A DNA stretch of 11,011 nt from Deltaproteobacteria bacterium. Its GTDB lineage: Bacteria; Myxococcota; Myxococcia; Myxococcales; 40CM-4-68-19. The translations under genes were made by a program, and so were the position numbers. Below, piece after piece: positions 2,853-11,011 of this stretch. The notes beneath the pieces were generated by a model. It was not told where the DNA came from. It ran no database searches and worked only from the letters and a program-made list of their open reading frames with translations. The first letter of the stretch is position 1, and every line of letters starts with the position of its first letter. The DNA lies in the NCBI GenBank assembly GCA_005879095.1, contig VBLM01000322.1, positions 1 to 11,011 on the forward strand. The letters run 5' to 3'.

Positions 2853-3942
2853 CGCCCGCTTCTCTCGACGAAGCGCAGCGCGCGCTGAGCGAATCGCGCG
2901 GCACCGTCGCGTTCGCCGGAGGCAGGACGGAAGTGCCCGCGCCGCCCGCTGCCGATCTGCTGATCGAAACCACGAAGCTCGATCGCATCGTCGAGTACAC
3001 GCCCTCCGATCAGGTGGTGACCGCCGAGTGCGGCGTGACGCTGGCAGCGCTGCAGCGCGAGCTGGCGAAGCACGGGCAGCGGCTCGCTCTCGACCCGGCT
3101 CGCGCGGACCGCGCCACTCTCGGTCGTACGTATGACACTCGTTGACCGGCGCGGGCCCGATGGTGTTGTACCAGACGCCCTCGTTGACCGGAGCGAGGTA
3201 GTCCACGACCGTCCAGGGACCGCCGCTGGTTTTGTCGCGCCAGATGAGCTGGACGTTGCCGGAGCCGCCATAGGCGTAACCCGCGACGGTGAACGTTCCC
3301 GGCGGTCCGAAGCCGGCGGCCTCCGCGGGCTGGATCCAGGCGATCTTCGCTCCGCAGAGGAGGTTCTTGGGGCTGGTTCCCAGACTCGCGCCGCTGGCGG
3401 AGTGGCGCGCGTCGAGCACGTGCGGCTCGCGCGGGACGCTCGGCATGATCGCGACCGCGACGTTCCGCGTGCATCCGGTACCCGAGGAGACGGTGACGCT
3501 GCTCGCGCGGGGCCTCGAGGCTGCCGGCGTGATCGAGCTGGTGCGGAAGGTGCGCCGGTTCCAGCTCGAGCCGGCCGCGATGATGGCGCACTACGAGACG
3601 GATTACGACGTGTGGATCCGCCTCGAGGGCTTTCGCGCCGGCGTGCGGGCGCAGCGCGAGAAGCTGCGCGATCTGGCGGAGGCGCCGTGGCCCGCGGGCG
3701 AGCCGTCGGGCAGCGTGCGATTCGGCGCGCTGCCGACGCAATTGCCCCAGGTCGAACAGACGCTCAAAGCGCCGTTCTGGTGGTACCCGACGCTCGGACT
3801 CGGTCTTGCAAACGCTGCCGATCCCGTGTCGTTTGCCGCGTTCGGCGGTTGGGCGGGCTCGCCGTCGCCTGCATTGCCGACGTTGCATCAGGCGGTGAAA
3901 TCCCGCCTCGATCCGGACACGCGCCTGCCGAGGCTCTGGTGA
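2849..3942 (+). pseudogene. glcE: Glycolate oxidase FAD-binding subunit GlcE, disrupted by a 307-bp duplicated segment
   Basis: GlcE is the second FAD-binding subunit of glycolate oxidase. The N-terminal part (2849-3124, ATG overlapping the glcD stop) shows the usual start of the FAD domain and ends at DRATLG. The C-terminal part resumes at 3421 with CGSRGTLGMI and HPVP, continues through the FAD-oxidase-like half and ends at TGA 3940-3942, overlapping the glcF GTG start. In E. coli GlcE about 54 residues lie between these two points, including the conserved KNVAGYD stretch. Here they are gone and bases 3124-3430 are a foreign 307-bp segment identical to 6688-6994. The first frame stops at 3145, 21 nt into the segment, and the second half is in another frame. 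Intact length would be about 319 residues, near the family norm of about 350. As written no functional GlcE can be made. Both halves remain well conserved, so the event is recent or an assembly artefact. Confidence 0.92.
3124..3430 (+). repeat. 307-bp exact direct repeat, copy A (inside glcE)
   Basis: Reading both copies side by side, bases 3124-3430 match 6688-6994 at every position (offset 3,564), in the same orientation. The match stops at once on both sides: G3123 against C6687 on the left, G3431 against C6995 on the right. Read on the - strand, copy A encodes about 102 residues of the large surface protein (from EPHVLDA to CHTYE). Inside glcE it is antisense and meaningless, so copy A is the derived one. 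It carries no transposase, terminal inverted repeats or target-site duplication, so it is not an insertion sequence. Confidence 0.97.
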
Positions 3943-5199: not shown

Positions 5200-5568
5200 T
5201 CAGGCTGGCGCGCCCTCGACCACGGACGACTTCGGATTCGGCCCATACTCGTTGTCGCCGGGCTCGCCGTCGGTGGCGAGGAACACGATCAGCACGATGA
5301 AGCCGATCAGCGGAATCAAGCCGATCAGCAGCCACCAGCCGCTGCGCCCGGTGTCGTGCAGGCGCCGCACCGAGACCGCGATGCTCGGGACCAGCACCGC
5401 CAGCGAATAGAGCCAGCTGAGGAAGCTCAAGCCGTGCACGAGCGCGCCGATGACCCCGAGCCCGCAGCCGATGAGGAAGTTGATCAGCACGAACATCCAG
5501 TACTCGCGCCGCCGCGCGCGCCCCGAGAATTCGGCGTACCTCTTGAGCACCGCCATGTACCAGTCCAT
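5200..5568 (-). CDS. DUF805 family small membrane protein
   Basis: This 122-residue integral membrane protein belongs to the DUF805 (YhaH/YhaI-like) family, whose function is unknown. Family landmarks are the N-terminal FSGRARRREYW (residues 14-24), VRRLHDTGRSGWW (around 67-79) and the C-terminal GDNEYGPNP. Three hydrophobic stretches, roughly residues 24-44, 48-66 and 78-98, are likely membrane segments. The ATG at 5568 is preceded by a purine-rich GAGGGGGA Shine-Dalgarno-like stretch. The start lies 10 nt after the stop of the osmC gene, so the two are probably cotranscribed. The same frame stays open upstream to 5718, but that part overlaps osmC out of frame and lacks family similarity. 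Confidence 0.9.
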   Translation of the reverse strand: MDWYMAVLKRYAEFSGRARRREYWMFVLINFLIGCGLGVIGALVHGLSFLSWLYSLAVLVPSIAVSVRRLHDTGRSGWWLLIGLIPLIGFIVLIVFLATDGEPGDNEYGPNPKSSVVEGAPA

Positions 5569-5578
5569 GTTTTCCCCC

Positions 5579-6043
5579 TCAGCGAAACGAAAGCTCGGTT
5601 GTGACTGCGATCTGCGGATGGATCGAGCGGTAGATCGGACACGCCTGCGCGAAGAAGCCGTGCACGCGCTCCGCCGTTTCGCGCTGCGCGGGCTCGGCCT
5701 CGAGCAGCATCTTGACATGAATCCGCTTGATCACCAGTACGTTTCCTTCCAGCTCCACCTCTCCGACGGCTTCCGCGACGAGCTTCCCGGCGGACGCGGG
5801 GATTTGACGCGCCTCCAGCGCGCCTCCGAAAGTCCCGGTCAGTCAACCCGCCGCGGCCGCCACGACGTAGTCGATGGTCGTCGCGTGCGGCTCGTACGCG
5901 CCGGGCTGGGCGCCGTAGTGCTTCGCCACCGCGCCGTGGGTGCCGAATTTCACCGGCTGCGGCTCCTCGGGAAGAAAAGCGTGGCGCAGCGAGCCCTTGA
6001 TTCGTTCGATGCGCACCTGCGAGCGATAGGCGATTTCGGCCAT
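5579..6043 (-). CDS. OsmC-family peroxide reductase with predicted selenocysteine (in-frame TGA at codon 67)
   Basis: OsmC/Ohr proteins are cytoplasmic thiol peroxidases that reduce organic hydroperoxides with two reactive cysteines. The 154-residue frame starts at ATG 6043, with a strong AGGAGG 4 nt upstream. It runs through the family stretch HATTIDYVVAAAAG, meets TGA at 5843-5845 (codon 67), then continues in the same frame with LTGTFGGALEAR and ends at TGA 5579-5581. Codon 67 is exactly where Cys-containing homologues have their first reactive cysteine (AAAGCLTGTFGG). The second one is kept as C135 in QACPIYRSIH (codon 5639-5641), a spacing of 68 against 66 in E. coli OsmC (C59/C125). No other stop or frameshift occurs, and a SECIS-like hairpin follows the TGA. 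I infer Sec67. The alternative is a TGC-to-TGA nonsense mutation or sequence error, a fair worry because aceB and glcE nearby are broken. Conventional gene calling would give only a 66-residue fragment. DUF805 follows in the same operon. Confidence 0.85.
5806..5824 (-). promoter_or_regulatory. Candidate bacterial SECIS element within the osmC-like coding sequence
   Basis: On the - strand, 19-37 nt after the in-frame TGA (5843-5845), the sequence GGCGCGC-TGGAG-GCGCGTC forms a 7-bp stem: five uninterrupted G-C pairs next to the loop, then one G-U and one G-C pair. The loop is the pentanucleotide UGGAG at nt 26-30. Bacterial SECIS elements lie in the coding region just after UGA, with a small apical loop about 16-37 nt downstream and a G among its first two bases; all of these hold here. 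The caveat is that the bases also encode the family-conserved GALEAR in a GC-rich genome, so a hairpin could arise by chance. Confidence 0.6.
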
Positions 6044-6047
6044 GGCG

Positions 6048-6053
6048 CCTCCT
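6048..6053 (-). promoter_or_regulatory. Shine-Dalgarno of the osmC-like gene
   Basis: AGGAGG on the - strand lies 4 nt before ATG 6043. It fixes the start of the osmC-like frame and is the strongest ribosome binding site seen in the window. Confidence 0.75.
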
Positions 6054-6302: not shown

Positions 6303-9300
6303 TCAGGGGCACCAAACGATGTTGCCGTCGCCCGCGTAGGCGCAACTCCCCGACTGCCGGATGTCGTACTTCACGTATGCCTCGTACTGGTGCGTGTAGT
6401 CGGCGGGGAACGCGTTGTACCAGATGCCCGTCGAGTCGGGCAGCGGCGCGTACGACACCTGCGACCAACCGCCCCCGGCCGTCAGGTCCTGGTAGTACAG
6501 GAAGACCTGGACGCCAGGTGGCGCGCCGGTCGCGCTGCCCGCGACGATCAAGTTGTCCGCCGGGCCGAACCCGGCGAGCGGCTGCGGCTGCATCCAGATG
6601 ATGCTCGCGGACTCCTGGCAATAGCCGGACGTCGAAGCATCGTATGTAAAGATCGCGGAGGTCCCGCCGTCGTAGATCGCATAGGCCTCGTACGTATGAC
6701 ACTCGTTGACCGGCGCGGGCCCGATGGTGTTGTACCAGACGCCCTCGTTGACCGGAGCGAGGTAGTCCACGACCGTCCAGGGACCGCCGCTGGTTTTGTC
6801 GCGCCAGATGAGCTGGACGTTGCCGGAGCCGCCATAGGCGTAACCCGCGACGGTGAACGTTCCCGGCGGTCCGAAGCCGGCGGCCTCCGCGGGCTGGATC
6901 CAGGCGATCTTCGCTCCGCAGAGGAGGTTCTTGGGGCTGGTTCCCAGACTCGCGCCGCTGGCGGAGTGGCGCGCGTCGAGCACGTGCGGCTCGCCGTCCT
7001 TGAGCGAGACCGGCGTGCCCGTGCCCCAGGCGTGCGTGCCGTCGCCGATGCCGGCGTCGAGGAGGTCCTGGCGGAAATAGATCGCGGGGAGGCTGGAGAG
7101 CACGCGGACTCCGCCCGAATAGACGTCGACCGCGGTATGTGAGGCGGGCGAGTTCCGGTCCCAGGCCCAGCCGAAGACGACGTCGCATTGGGCGGCGTCG
7201 AAGTATCCTTCGTACAGCGGCGTCGGGATCGTGCAGATGCCGGAGATGCAGTGCCGGCCATTGGTGCAGGCGGGGCCGCCGCCGCAGGTGCACGACCCGT
7301 TGCCACAGCCGTCGGCGACGTTGATATCGCAGGCCGTGCACAGAGCGCCGGCGGGGCCGCAGAAGTTCACCGAGACCGGCTGCTGGCAGGTCCCGTAAAT
7401 ACCGTCCTTGCAGCACCCGTTGCAGCTCGTTTCGTCGCACTGGCAGGCGAACTGTCCGCAGTGCAGCCCGGGTCCGCAGGGAGGCGTGCCGTGGCAGCCG
7501 CAGGTGCCGTCGCTCAGACACATGTTGGTCTTCGCGGGGTCGCAGGACGTGCAGGCGTTGCCGTCGGTTCCGCAGTTGGGGAAGCCCTGCGTATTGCACT
7601 GCCCGTTCTGGCAGCAGCCGTTGGAACAGGCGACTCCACACGTCGAGTGGAACAGGTGTGCGGCTGCCACGTCCGAGGTTTGCGAATTGCCGACGTACGC
7701 GCGCGCCTTCACGTACGTGGAGGTCGAGACGCTGAACGAATTGGAATAGACGCTGCTCGAGAGGTTGTCGGGCGCGGGATCGGTTCCGTCGAGGGTGTAG
7801 TAGATGGTGGCGCCGGGAGTGGTGTCCGAGATCGTGACCGTCTGCGTGCCGGAGAAGATGGTCCCGTCCCTGGGCGAGATCACCGGCGTCGCGACGGTGA
7901 AGAGGCCGAACCAGGCCAGCGTGGACCCGGCCGCGATGTACACGAATCCGCCGCCCACCGTCGGCGCGACGAACTGGCCGGTGTGGGGCAGGTTGTCCTG
8001 GGTGCGGACGCCACGCGGCACGCCGGCCGCGTTGCTGTCGTAAAGGTCGAAGAGATCGGTCGCGCGATAGGCGTGCAGGTAGGTCTTGTCGGGGAAGACG
8101 AACGGTTCCGGTTCCGTGCGCTCCAGCGCCCAGACGATCGAGTCGGCCGTTCCGTTCGCCGAAATCGACGGGGTGGCACCCGGATATTTGAAGGTATTGG
8201 CGCTGTAATAGTCCGGTCCCGAGAAGATCGAGGCGCCGCCGACCGCGAACCGCTTGAGAGAATCGCCGTTGCCGGCGAAGTAGAGGTGCCCGTTGAAGTA
8301 CGCGGGCTGTCCGTAATAGGCCTCACCGGGGACCACACCCGTCGCTCCGACGTCGACGGAGACGGCGCAATTGCCGGGCGCCGCGCCGGACGGACAGATT
8401 GCGTCGGCCGATCCGGTCTGGGTTCCGCCGAGTTGATTGCGGTCGAGCAGGTAGATCGTGCCGTTCTTGCCGGCGGTGACGAGCAGGTTCGGGTGCGCCG
8501 GCACCGAGTCGGGGATGATCACGACGCCTCCCGCCGACAGGTCGAGATCTTTCTGGTTGAGGTGGACCTGGTCCGCCGGCGTGAACCAGTCCGGCACCTG
8601 ATTCAGATTCGGCTGGGGAATGGGAAGCGGCAGCGCGATCACGCTGTCGCCGTACTGACGGTTGCCGGGCGCCGCGACGCCGTTTCCGGTGGTGACGAAG
8701 ATGCGCTGACCGTCGGAAGCGATGCCGCCCGCGCTCTGCCAGATGCTGCCGCCGTAGGCCACTACCCGGAGGTCCGCGGGGACGTTCGGGTCGAGAGAAA
8801 CCGGGTTGAAGTACGGCTCCGCATTGAAGAGGCCGTCCACCCGGTCGAGCGTGGCTGCGTCGAAGGCCATCAGCCAGCCGAAGAAGACCTGGTTCGGAGC
8901 ATCGACGAAGTCGTCGCAGTGGGAGGCCCAGGCCACGTAGACCTTTCCGTTGAGCAGCAGCAATCCGGCGCGCTGGTTTTCACGCCTGGGGTCGAACGCG
9001 ATCGTGGTCGGGGCACCGGTGGCGTCGGTGCCCTGCACCGCGCCGGTGATGACCTGGCTCTTCTTGACGGCACTGGTGGCCAGGTCGATCGCGTGCAGCC
9101 TCTGCTTCCAGGATCCGCCCTCCTGGGTTGCCGCAACCACGTAGATGGTTCCGCTGATCGGGTCGATCACCGGCGTTCCGGTGATCCCGACCTCGTCGGG
9201 GATGTTGATGCAAGGGCTCTTGTACACGTCGCTGGTGGGGATGGGCGGACCGAGCGAGACCGGATTGCTCCAGATCGCGGCGCCGGTATGAGCGTCGAGC

Positions 9301-11011
9301 GCGTAGACCATGTTGTGCTCGGTCGCGACGATCACCATGTCGCGCAGGCCGGAGGGAGTGACCACCCCCGGCGCGTAGAGCGGCTGGGCGAAGATCCGTC
9401 CCACCACGCTTACGGTGAAGAGCTTTCCGAAGCTCATCTGGACCGCCTGCCAGGTGAGCTGGGTCTCGGCCGCGTTGAGGCCGGTGCGCGCGATGTCGTT
9501 GTGCTGCGTGAGCACCGCACCGGCGCCGCCGGTGACGACGGAGGCCTGCGCGAAGATCTCGGCGCTCGCCAGCGCCATCGACGCGCCCGCGCTGCCGCCG
9601 GCGACGAGCACTTGACCACTCGCGAGCAGGGCCGCGGCATGCCTCGTGCGCGGCGTGGAGAGGAACGCGGGCACCTCGGTCCACAGACCTGTCGAGGGCT
9701 GGTAGATCTCAGCGCTGCCGAGGACCGCGCCGCTGGCGTTGGTTCCGCCGACGACGAGGACGTTTCCGTTCGGCAGCAGGGTCGCGGTGTGGCCGGTGCG
9801 CGGCGTGTTCAGCGCGCCGGTCGGCGTGAAAGCGCCGGTCGCCGGGTCGTAGAGCTCCGCAGCCGCGAGGAACCCGCCGCCTCCATACCCGCCGGCGACC
9901 AGCGCCTTGCCGTCGGCGAGCGCGGTGAGGGTAAAACCGCCGCGCGGATTCGACAGCGGGCCGGTGACGGACCAGCTCCTGAGCGAGGGATCGTAAATCT
10001 CCGCCTCGGCCTGCTGCGAATGATCCGATGGACACCCGCTGGCCGGCCCGCCGGCGATGAGCACCTTGCCGCCTGCGAGCAGCGCAGCGGATCCGGACTC
10101 GCGGTTCTGTTGCAGCGAGCCGGTTGGCGACCATCCGCCCGCGGCGTCGAACATCTCGGCATCGGAACGGTACGTGCAGTCGCCAGCGCGCGTGGGGCCG
10201 CCCGCGATCAGCAGCTTGCCGCCGAGGACGACGAAACTGCCGCCGGCGCGCGCGCCCAAAGACAGCGGCGGACCGGCGGACCAGACGTCGGCCGAAGGGT
10301 CGTACAGCTCGCTACTGCCGAGGATGTCATTGCCGCCGTCGAAGCCGCCCGCCGCGATCACCTGCCCGCTGGAGAGCAGTCCGATGCTGAAGGAGCGCCG
10401 ACGGACGCTCATCGACGAAGCCGCGCTCCACATTCCCGTCGCCGGATCGAAGACCTGCGAGGACCCGCCGCCCGCGACCAGCACACTGCCGCCGGGGAGC
10501 TCGATGGCGCCCTCCGCGGAATCGAACTCGCGCGCGATCGCCATCGAGGCGGCCGGCATGAACGCGGGCGATCCCGGTGGAGCGACGACCGGCTCCTTGA
10601 TCTCGATCGCCACGACGCTGCTGGCGCCGCTCGTTTCGCCGTTCAGCTGTTGGGTTGCGGTCAGCGCGTGCGGGCCGATCGCGAGTGAGACGATCGCGCC
10701 GAAGAGACCGCCGCCGTCGGCGGTGACGGACGCGACGGCGCTGCCGCCGTCGAAGAGGGTCACCGACGCATTGGCGATCGCGGCGCCGCTTACCGCGACC
10801 GAGCCGTTGGTCCTCGCGGTGCCGCTCGCAGGCGAGACGATGGCCGGCGCCGCGGGCCGGACGTGGCCCTCGAGCGCATCGCTGGCGACGCTCGTTTCAC
10901 CGTTGCGGATCTGGATCGCGCTGAGGCGGTGAGCTCCGTAGCCGAGAGTAGCGGTGACGCTCCAGATCCCGCCGGCGTCGACGGTGATCGGGCCGGCGGG
11001 AATCGCCAGCG
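6303..11011 (-). CDS. Large secreted/surface multidomain protein (Ig-like, kelch, PQQ-type propeller, Cys-rich), 5'-partial
   Basis: The frame is open from the window edge to TGA 6303-6305, giving 1,568 visible residues; the N-terminus lies beyond 11011. A GTG at 10763 is internal. Domains, numbered from the first visible residue, are: Ig-like repeats (1-137); seven kelch motifs of the LLxxGxVLVAGG type (150-487); a PQQ-type beta-propeller with blades such as VYALDAHTGAAIW (about 498-1037); a chitobiase/hexosaminidase C-terminal-like domain with ATIYYTLDGTDP (1039-1119); a Cys-rich region with 28 cysteines and two NGCC motifs (1124-1260); a domain with FGWAWDRNSP and FRQDLLDAGIGDG (1266-1365); and two related C-terminal repeats with W(I/M)QP, GFGP and (V/I)WYN (1366-1465, 1466-1568). 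The make-up is that of a secreted or cell-surface protein of myxobacterial or acidobacterial type. Function is unknown; binding rather than catalysis seems likely. No C-terminal anchor motif is visible. Confidence 0.92.
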   Translation of the reverse strand, partial: LAIPAGPITVDAGGIWSVTATLGYGAHRLSAIQIRNGETSVASDALEGHVRPAAPAIVSPASGTARTNGSVAVSGAAIANASVTLFDGGSAVASVTADGGGLFGAIVSLAIGPHALTATQQLNGETSGASSVVAIEIKEPVVAPPGSPAFMPAASMAIAREFDSAEGAIELPGGSVLVAGGGSSQVFDPATGMWSAASSMSVRRRSFSIGLLSSGQVIAAGGFDGGNDILGSSELYDPSADVWSAGPPLSLGARAGGSFVVLGGKLLIAGGPTRAGDCTYRSDAEMFDAAGGWSPTGSLQQNRESGSAALLAGGKVLIAGGPASGCPSDHSQQAEAEIYDPSLRSWSVTGPLSNPRGGFTLTALADGKALVAGGYGGGGFLAAAELYDPATGAFTPTGALNTPRTGHTATLLPNGNVLVVGGTNASGAVLGSAEIYQPSTGLWTEVPAFLSTPRTRHAAALLASGQVLVAGGSAGASMALASAEIFAQASVVTGGAGAVLTQHNDIARTGLNAAETQLTWQAVQMSFGKLFTVSVVGRIFAQPLYAPGVVTPSGLRDMVIVATEHNMVYALDAHTGAAIWSNPVSLGPPIPTSDVYKSPCINIPDEVGITGTPVIDPISGTIYVVAATQEGGSWKQRLHAIDLATSAVKKSQVITGAVQGTDATGAPTTIAFDPRRENQRAGLLLLNGKVYVAWASHCDDFVDAPNQVFFGWLMAFDAATLDRVDGLFNAEPYFNPVSLDPNVPADLRVVAYGGSIWQSAGGIASDGQRIFVTTGNGVAAPGNRQYGDSVIALPLPIPQPNLNQVPDWFTPADQVHLNQKDLDLSAGGVVIIPDSVPAHPNLLVTAGKNGTIYLLDRNQLGGTQTGSADAICPSGAAPGNCAVSVDVGATGVVPGEAYYGQPAYFNGHLYFAGNGDSLKRFAVGGASIFSGPDYYSANTFKYPGATPSISANGTADSIVWALERTEPEPFVFPDKTYLHAYRATDLFDLYDSNAAGVPRGVRTQDNLPHTGQFVAPTVGGGFVYIAAGSTLAWFGLFTVATPVISPRDGTIFSGTQTVTISDTTPGATIYYTLDGTDPAPDNLSSSVYSNSFSVSTSTYVKARAYVGNSQTSDVAAAHLFHSTCGVACSNGCCQNGQCNTQGFPNCGTDGNACTSCDPAKTNMCLSDGTCGCHGTPPCGPGLHCGQFACQCDETSCNGCCKDGIYGTCQQPVSVNFCGPAGALCTACDINVADGCGNGSCTCGGGPACTNGRHCISGICTIPTPLYEGYFDAAQCDVVFGWAWDRNSPASHTAVDVYSGGVRVLSSLPAIYFRQDLLDAGIGDGTHAWGTGTPVSLKDGEPHVLDARHSASGASLGTSPKNLLCGAKIAWIQPAEAAGFGPPGTFTVAGYAYGGSGNVQLIWRDKTSGGPWTVVDYLAPVNEGVWYNTIGPAPVNECHTYEAYAIYDGGTSAIFTYDASTSGYCQESASIIWMQPQPLAGFGPADNLIVAGSATGAPPGVQVFLYYQDLTAGGGWSQVSYAPLPDSTGIWYNAFPADYTHQYEAYVKYDIRQSGSCAYAGDGNIVWCP
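6688..6994 (+). repeat. 307-bp exact direct repeat, copy B (source copy in the surface-protein gene)
   Basis: This segment is identical to 3124-3430. Here it sits seamlessly in the - strand frame of the large surface protein, covering the end of the GWAWD domain and most of the first C-terminal repeat. The next repeat of the same protein resembles it only at protein level. It is therefore the original copy, and the one in glcE is derived. Confidence 0.97.
9549..10562 (-). repeat. Seven kelch repeats within the large surface protein
   Basis: Seven motifs of about 45-50 residues each carry a hydrophobic strand, a short turn (GG, DG or SG) and VLVAGG or a variant: VLVAGG, VIAAGG, LLIAGG, VLIAGG, ALVAGG, VLVVGG, VLVAGG. 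Most are followed by SAE(L/I)YDP and a tryptophan or aromatic. Seven repeats would close a complete beta-propeller. This coding block also produces a long spurious open frame on the opposite strand. Confidence 0.85.
10599..11011 (-). repeat. Bacterial Ig-like repeats at the visible N-terminal end of the surface protein
   Basis: Two related segments are visible. One is cut by the window edge and contains ITVDAGGIWSVTATLGYGAH; the other contains VTADGGGLFGAIVSLAIGPH. Both are followed by L(S/T)A, then a few residues and NGETS. Spacing is about 85-90 residues. More copies probably lie beyond 11011. Confidence 0.7.

Follow-up and report, generated by a model that had tools for sequence, protein, structure and literature searches.

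Does a single in-frame TGA in an OsmC-family gene mark a gene that has decayed, or a codon that is read as selenocysteine (Sec)? The question is raised by a locus on the minus strand of the window, by which we mean the whole stretch of 11,011 nucleotides analysed here. A sequence-only reading of that stretch had predicted a selenoprotein, in which the TGA would take the place of the family's reactive cysteine, and we followed this prediction through the reading frame, its relatives, the adjoining RNA and the decoding machinery.

The OsmC-family frame and its single TGA

The strand of the gene, absent from the sequence-only reading, is minus. From 6043 down to 5579 the frame opens with ATG and runs through 66 codons, the TGA, 87 further codons and a TGA stop, whereas the standard code splits it and leaves a 66-residue ORF. 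The translation bears out the earlier description of one TGA in a frame clean on both sides, with the partner cysteine C135 present. It had also been claimed that all eight genes of the window end in TGA; this holds for seven of the eight open frames whose stop codons were checked, the OsmC gene among them, but not for the eighth, which ends in TAG and is the opening part of a malate synthase with a frameshift. Since seven of the eight checked frames end with it, TGA can be regarded as an ordinary stop in the window.

Features of the OsmC-family locus, with positions in the window
Feature	Position	Strand	Basis or remark
OsmC-family selenoprotein gene (predicted), 154 residues plus TGA stop (U67, C135)	5579..6043	-	translation, profile and fold search
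In-frame UGA, predicted selenocysteine codon 67	5843..5845	-	conserved column
Putative bSECIS hairpin, GGCGCGCU-GGA-GGCGCGUC	5806..5824	-	26 nt from UGA to apical loop
Element inside the putative bSECIS hairpin	5814..5816	-	
Cys135 codon, putative resolving cysteine	5639..5641	-	invariant in 29 aligned sequences
Arg20 codon, candidate catalytic Arg by analogy with the Ohr literature	5984..5986	-	invariant in 29 aligned sequences
AGGAGG, candidate ribosome-binding site	6048..6053	-	4 bases between its end and ATG
DUF805 gene directly downstream, possibly cotranscribed	5200..5568	-	beside the Sec gene in 3 of 29 loci

The Pfam model PF02566 (OsmC) matched the window protein with 43.1 bits, above its cut-off of 27.5, over residues 56-150 and thus across the TGA, and it matched every one of the 29 Sec sequences of our alignment (A3, in which U67 is displayed as C) at E <= 0.001. 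A search of the window's assembly with the same model returned the OsmC gene, interrupted by one TGA, and two further places that are free of stops. Sequence searches of the PDB gave no OsmC match, and it was the fold search alone that yielded OsmC-type neighbours; it assigned the protein to the OsmC/Ohr fold, with Ohr and OsmC peroxidases among the best structural neighbours. R20, U67, G70, T71, C135 and P136 are invariant in the 29 aligned sequences. They include the two reactive chalcogen positions, U67 and C135, and the glycine of a UxxG redox motif that is present in 29/29.

The DUF805 neighbour was found by tblastn at L018, L033 and L034; a narrow DUF805 motif recovered it in one of 11 relatives and missed some of the cases found by tblastn. 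Inspection by eye of the longest unannotated ORFs beside 14 relatives showed nothing recurrent that would indicate a conserved operon. The window has some further peculiarities. An exact direct repeat of 300 nt (100%) occupies 3124-3423 and 6688-6987; it is a piece of a kelch-type gene that interrupts an apparent gene for the FAD-binding subunit in a glycolate oxidase cluster, possibly as the result of an assembly chimera. On the plus strand, malate synthase (2-1407) is covered by two overlapping frames, 2-955 (ending in TAG) and 847-1407, an overlap that suggests a frameshift or assembly error. The minus strand of 6303-10763 encodes a long kelch-repeat protein whose C-terminal part is rich in cysteine; the protein also has a chitobiase-like domain.

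The TGA column among relatives

A scan of contigs gave at least 14 cross-phylum loci with 49-95% identity to the window protein in the best segment. Their record titles name Myxococcales, Myxococcaceae, Deltaproteobacteria, Chloroflexota, Acidobacteriaceae, Gemmatimonadetes, Geobacter, Longimicrobiales and KSB1, and since all 14 titles say MAG, a taxon label borne by one locus could reflect a misbinned contig. The residue-67 column is TGA in 14/14 of these listed loci, with no other stop before the gene end, an agreement far beyond chance. The TGA does lie on the reactive-cysteine column, as the sequence-only reading had placed it, and the relatives show TGA at that column rather than the scattered stop codons that this reading had named as contrary evidence.

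Within 99 relatives (the window's genome included), 16 genomes had a match, of which 14 were full-length with one TGA each and two were partial without TGA. Three order-level relatives that carry the gene (G022, G031 and G033) have genomes in a single contig. A search of 195 Myxococcota genomes gave 18 matches: the same two partial ones and 16 full-length ones (window included), all with one TGA, which was confirmed at the residue-67 column in 16/16. The matches left out of the full-length counts are that of G010, which covers residues 99-154 only and was apparently truncated at the edge of a contig, and that of G064, a C-terminal part only in a dissimilar frame. The 14 cross-phylum loci, the set of 99 relatives and the 195 Myxococcota genomes overlap one another, and these counts are not to be added together.

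In Gemmatimonadota, 115 of 395 genomes had a match, with 182 matches in all. The best 150 of the 182 carry one TGA each (150/150), and its column was checked in 50 loci (30 plus 20 further fetched copies); Cys forms may occur among the 32 weaker matches, since the best 150 were those inspected. Many genomes of this phylum carry two Sec-OsmC copies. Eighteen of the 20 fetched copies (L134-L151), scoring about 113-130 bits, form a second paralogous OsmC group, here called the B group, in which TGA again occupies the residue-67 column and the stem covaries; these are 32-40% identical to the window protein (13/18 aligned). The other two, L152 and L153, are intermediate at 144-147 bits. No full-length Cys ortholog was seen among the cross-phylum matches listed, the Myxococcota matches or the best 150 of 182 Gemmatimonadota matches; in the Myxococcota and Gemmatimonadota searches, only some of the first-look candidates were scored in many genomes. 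A tblastn search of plasmids gave no match for the window protein or for a B-group protein.

Putative recoding hairpin and selenocysteine machinery

In the bSECIS model, the loop has 3-9 nt with a G in the first two loop positions, and in most cases starts 16-37 nt after the UGA (PMC13188914). The window hairpin fits this model in its spacing of 26 nt and its GGA loop. We compared 71 genes (51 distinct genes like that of the window, the A type, and the 20 fetched B-group genes, L152 and L153 counted in) with controls in which synonymous codons were redrawn. A stem of at least 4 bp fitting the model was present in 71/71 genes, a count that alone discriminates little. The mean best stem was 7.1 bp as opposed to 5.6 bp in the random recodings, and at least seven uninterrupted pairs were found in 65/71 genes against 22.8 expected under synonymous recoding, a difference that is not a probability because the sequences are related. 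The window stem alone has 8 bp, but 27 of 200 synonymous recodings equal it, so that the window hairpin is by itself no proof.

The codon evidence is stronger than that from stem length. In A-type genes, Ala at +8 is encoded by GCG in 49 of 50 cases and likewise at +11 (49/50), while elsewhere in these genes Ala codons are GCG in 41% and GCC in 43%, and codon choice is mixed for the conserved Ala residues at -5 and -4. The B group has Val (GTG) at +11 in 14/20 genes, and all 14 of them have GCA at +8, a codon that makes up 9% of Ala codons elsewhere; the four B-group genes with GCG at +11 all have GCG at +8. Since the codons at +8 and +11 change together, the stem base pair would be G-C or A-U in step. 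L152 and L153 break the +8/+11 pairing and offer an alternative hairpin, with a GGA loop 18 nt after the UGA or a 5-bp stem, and the hairpins of L025 (Geobacter) and L101 lie in other registers. Rfam at gathering score found nothing in the window, which was not taken as evidence against a bSECIS. If the hairpin acts as predicted, the paired codon changes would show cleanly how an RNA recoding signal can constrain the sequence of a protein.

In regards to the decoding machinery, the window's assembly (3.78 Mb in 791 contigs, 61.9% complete) has a tRNA-Sec on contig C679 (73.1 bits; called tRNA-SeC by ARAGORN), which is 91-93% identical over 105-117 bases to the tRNA-Sec of two genomes of the same genus (G002 and G005). 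The check for sel genes that the sequence-only reading had proposed was answered in part: the tRNA-Sec is in the genome, while searches of this 61.9%-complete bin did not detect SelA and gave no SelB match above the cut-off, yet SelA and SelB (over the cut-off) are both present in 6/6 same-genus genomes. The 14 genomes with a full-length gene among the 99 relatives have SelA in 13 cases, SelB over the cut-off in 12 and tRNA-Sec in 10. Four of them (G001, G004, G006 and G068) carry the TGA gene with no tRNA-Sec even in a more permissive search; all four have SelA, three have SelB over the cut-off, and one is 97% complete. Three genomes (G009, G011 and G018) have neither SelA, nor tRNA-Sec, nor the OsmC Sec gene, and G007 has SelA and SelB with neither the gene nor a tRNA-Sec match. 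A tRNA-Sec was found in 12 of the 13 genomes behind the listed cross-phylum loci, the exception being the genome with locus L021, where the gene is the one also present in G001. Over the 99 relatives a tRNA-Sec match was found in 80 and a match to the protein in 16; the gene is missing from many relatives that have tRNA-Sec, so that Sec use does not depend on it.

The conservation of the TGA column, the tRNA-Sec and the model-fitting hairpin with its codon covariation support the selenoprotein prediction. Judged on this sequence evidence, the UGA at codon 67 is almost certainly a site of Sec insertion, and the reading of the OsmC gene as a selenoprotein is, as a whole, very probable. The tRNA-Sec and SelB would decode the codon-67 UGA as selenocysteine, and the hairpin just downstream would direct this decoding. 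The split of the gene under the standard code, which gives a 66-residue ORF, would also be expected if the TGA had arisen in a Cys gene by nonsense mutation or through a sequencing error and the gene were now a pseudogene. However, the same TGA is shared by all 14 listed relatives and all 16 full-length Myxococcota matches, the frame downstream of it is conserved and the hairpin shows constraint on its choice of codons; we consider this explanation wildly improbable and rejected it, since the same TGA column is conserved across relatives. The UGA could also be recoded otherwise, by Trp or Cys suppression or by simple readthrough. Nothing specific favours this, the nearest observation being the four carriers without a detected tRNA-Sec, and it is hard to reconcile with a UGA that is the normal stop in 7/8 frames checked and falls on the family's reactive Cys column, with the tRNA-Sec of 10/14 Myxococcota carriers, or with the three genomes in which SelA, tRNA-Sec and gene are missing together, which makes it very improbable. 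Genetic-code reassignment of TGA was rejected given its normal use as a stop in the window and the conservation of the Sec column in relatives.

Probable chemistry and relation to known OsmC proteins

By analogy with Ohr/OsmC enzymes, the most likely substrate would be an organic hydroperoxide. The U67 selenolate would attack the peroxide, the resulting selenenic acid would be resolved by C135 to give a selenenylsulfide, and a dithiol partner would regenerate the enzyme. We lean towards such a peroxidase, for which the invariance of both reactive positions and of the N-terminal Arg speaks, as do the Ohr and OsmC peroxidases among the structural neighbours. A selenoprotein engaged in thiol-disulfide or other redox work, of the YhfA type, is a possibility to which we give less credence, although several observations point its way. 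No match of the window protein to the Ohr model TIGR03561 was listed, and the protein stays below the curated cut-offs of OsmC TIGR03562 (14.6 vs 85.8 bits) and SACOL1771 TIGR03563 (20.6 vs 166.15). In Ohr, the literature places the catalytic Glu 10 residues upstream of the reactive Cys. This Glu position is not conserved here: at -10 from U67 the protein has Ile57, and the neighbouring Asp58 (-9) is invariant, these being sequence positions and not superposed residues. Because Ile57 stands at the Glu position with Asp58 adjoining, the Arg-Glu-Cys triad of Ohr is not established for the Sec protein. The Ohr paper itself calls the activity of YhfA still unknown.

OsmC-like selenoproteins as a kind have been known since 2005, and the statement that they had been predicted in metagenome surveys proved correct: three sequences with the motif UxxT were described from the Sargasso Sea (PMC1088965). 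The GOS survey table has five (PMC2398784), and they are listed in two reviews (PMC9312934, PMC13188914). The 2006 selenoprotein lists for Anaeromyxobacter dehalogenans and three Geobacter species name no OsmC (PMC1794560), and in the open-access literature on OsmC selenoproteins, supplements aside, we found no description of the UxxG clade. This clade is beyond the reach of the NCBIfam model OsmC_like_Se (NF041052). Beyond this, we think there is a reasonable case that the clade is large and essentially obligate for Sec, with no close Cys orthologs, that it spans Myxococcota, Gemmatimonadota, Acidobacteriota, Chloroflexota, Geobacter and KSB1, that it includes a second Sec form which many Gemmatimonadota have as a paralogue, that the annotated model of OsmC selenoproteins does not cover it, and that the sequence of its catalytic helix is under constraint from the bSECIS. 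If so, a widespread redox selenoprotein subfamily has likely been missed, or annotated as 66-residue fragments, since neither the OsmC_like_Se nor the Ohr/OsmC models reach it. Such a retention of Sec across phyla would suggest that the chemistry of the clade needs selenium.

Like the OsmC-like selenoprotein of the Sargasso Sea and GOS data (COG1765, PF02566), the protein described here joins an OsmC domain to Sec, a predicted bSECIS and a Sec redox motif; the two are set apart by UxxT in the Sargasso Sea sequences versus UxxG, a distinction drawn from the published motif and not from direct sequence comparison. NF041052 is likewise a curated OsmC-type "(seleno)protein" family, and 24 of the 29 A3 members match it weakly (E <= 0.1). 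However, no match to it was listed for the window protein, and the best A3 score is 38.9 bits (E 7.6e-10, which is also the lowest E value of the 29) against a cut-off of 95, far above it. The Cys hydroperoxide reductases of the Ohr/OsmC type (TIGR03561, TIGR03562) have in common with the window protein the fold, the two reactive positions and the invariant N-terminal Arg. They differ from it in the Glu position and in model scores, the window protein being far under the curated cut-off or unmatched, and they use a peroxidatic Cys where the protein of this clade would use Sec.
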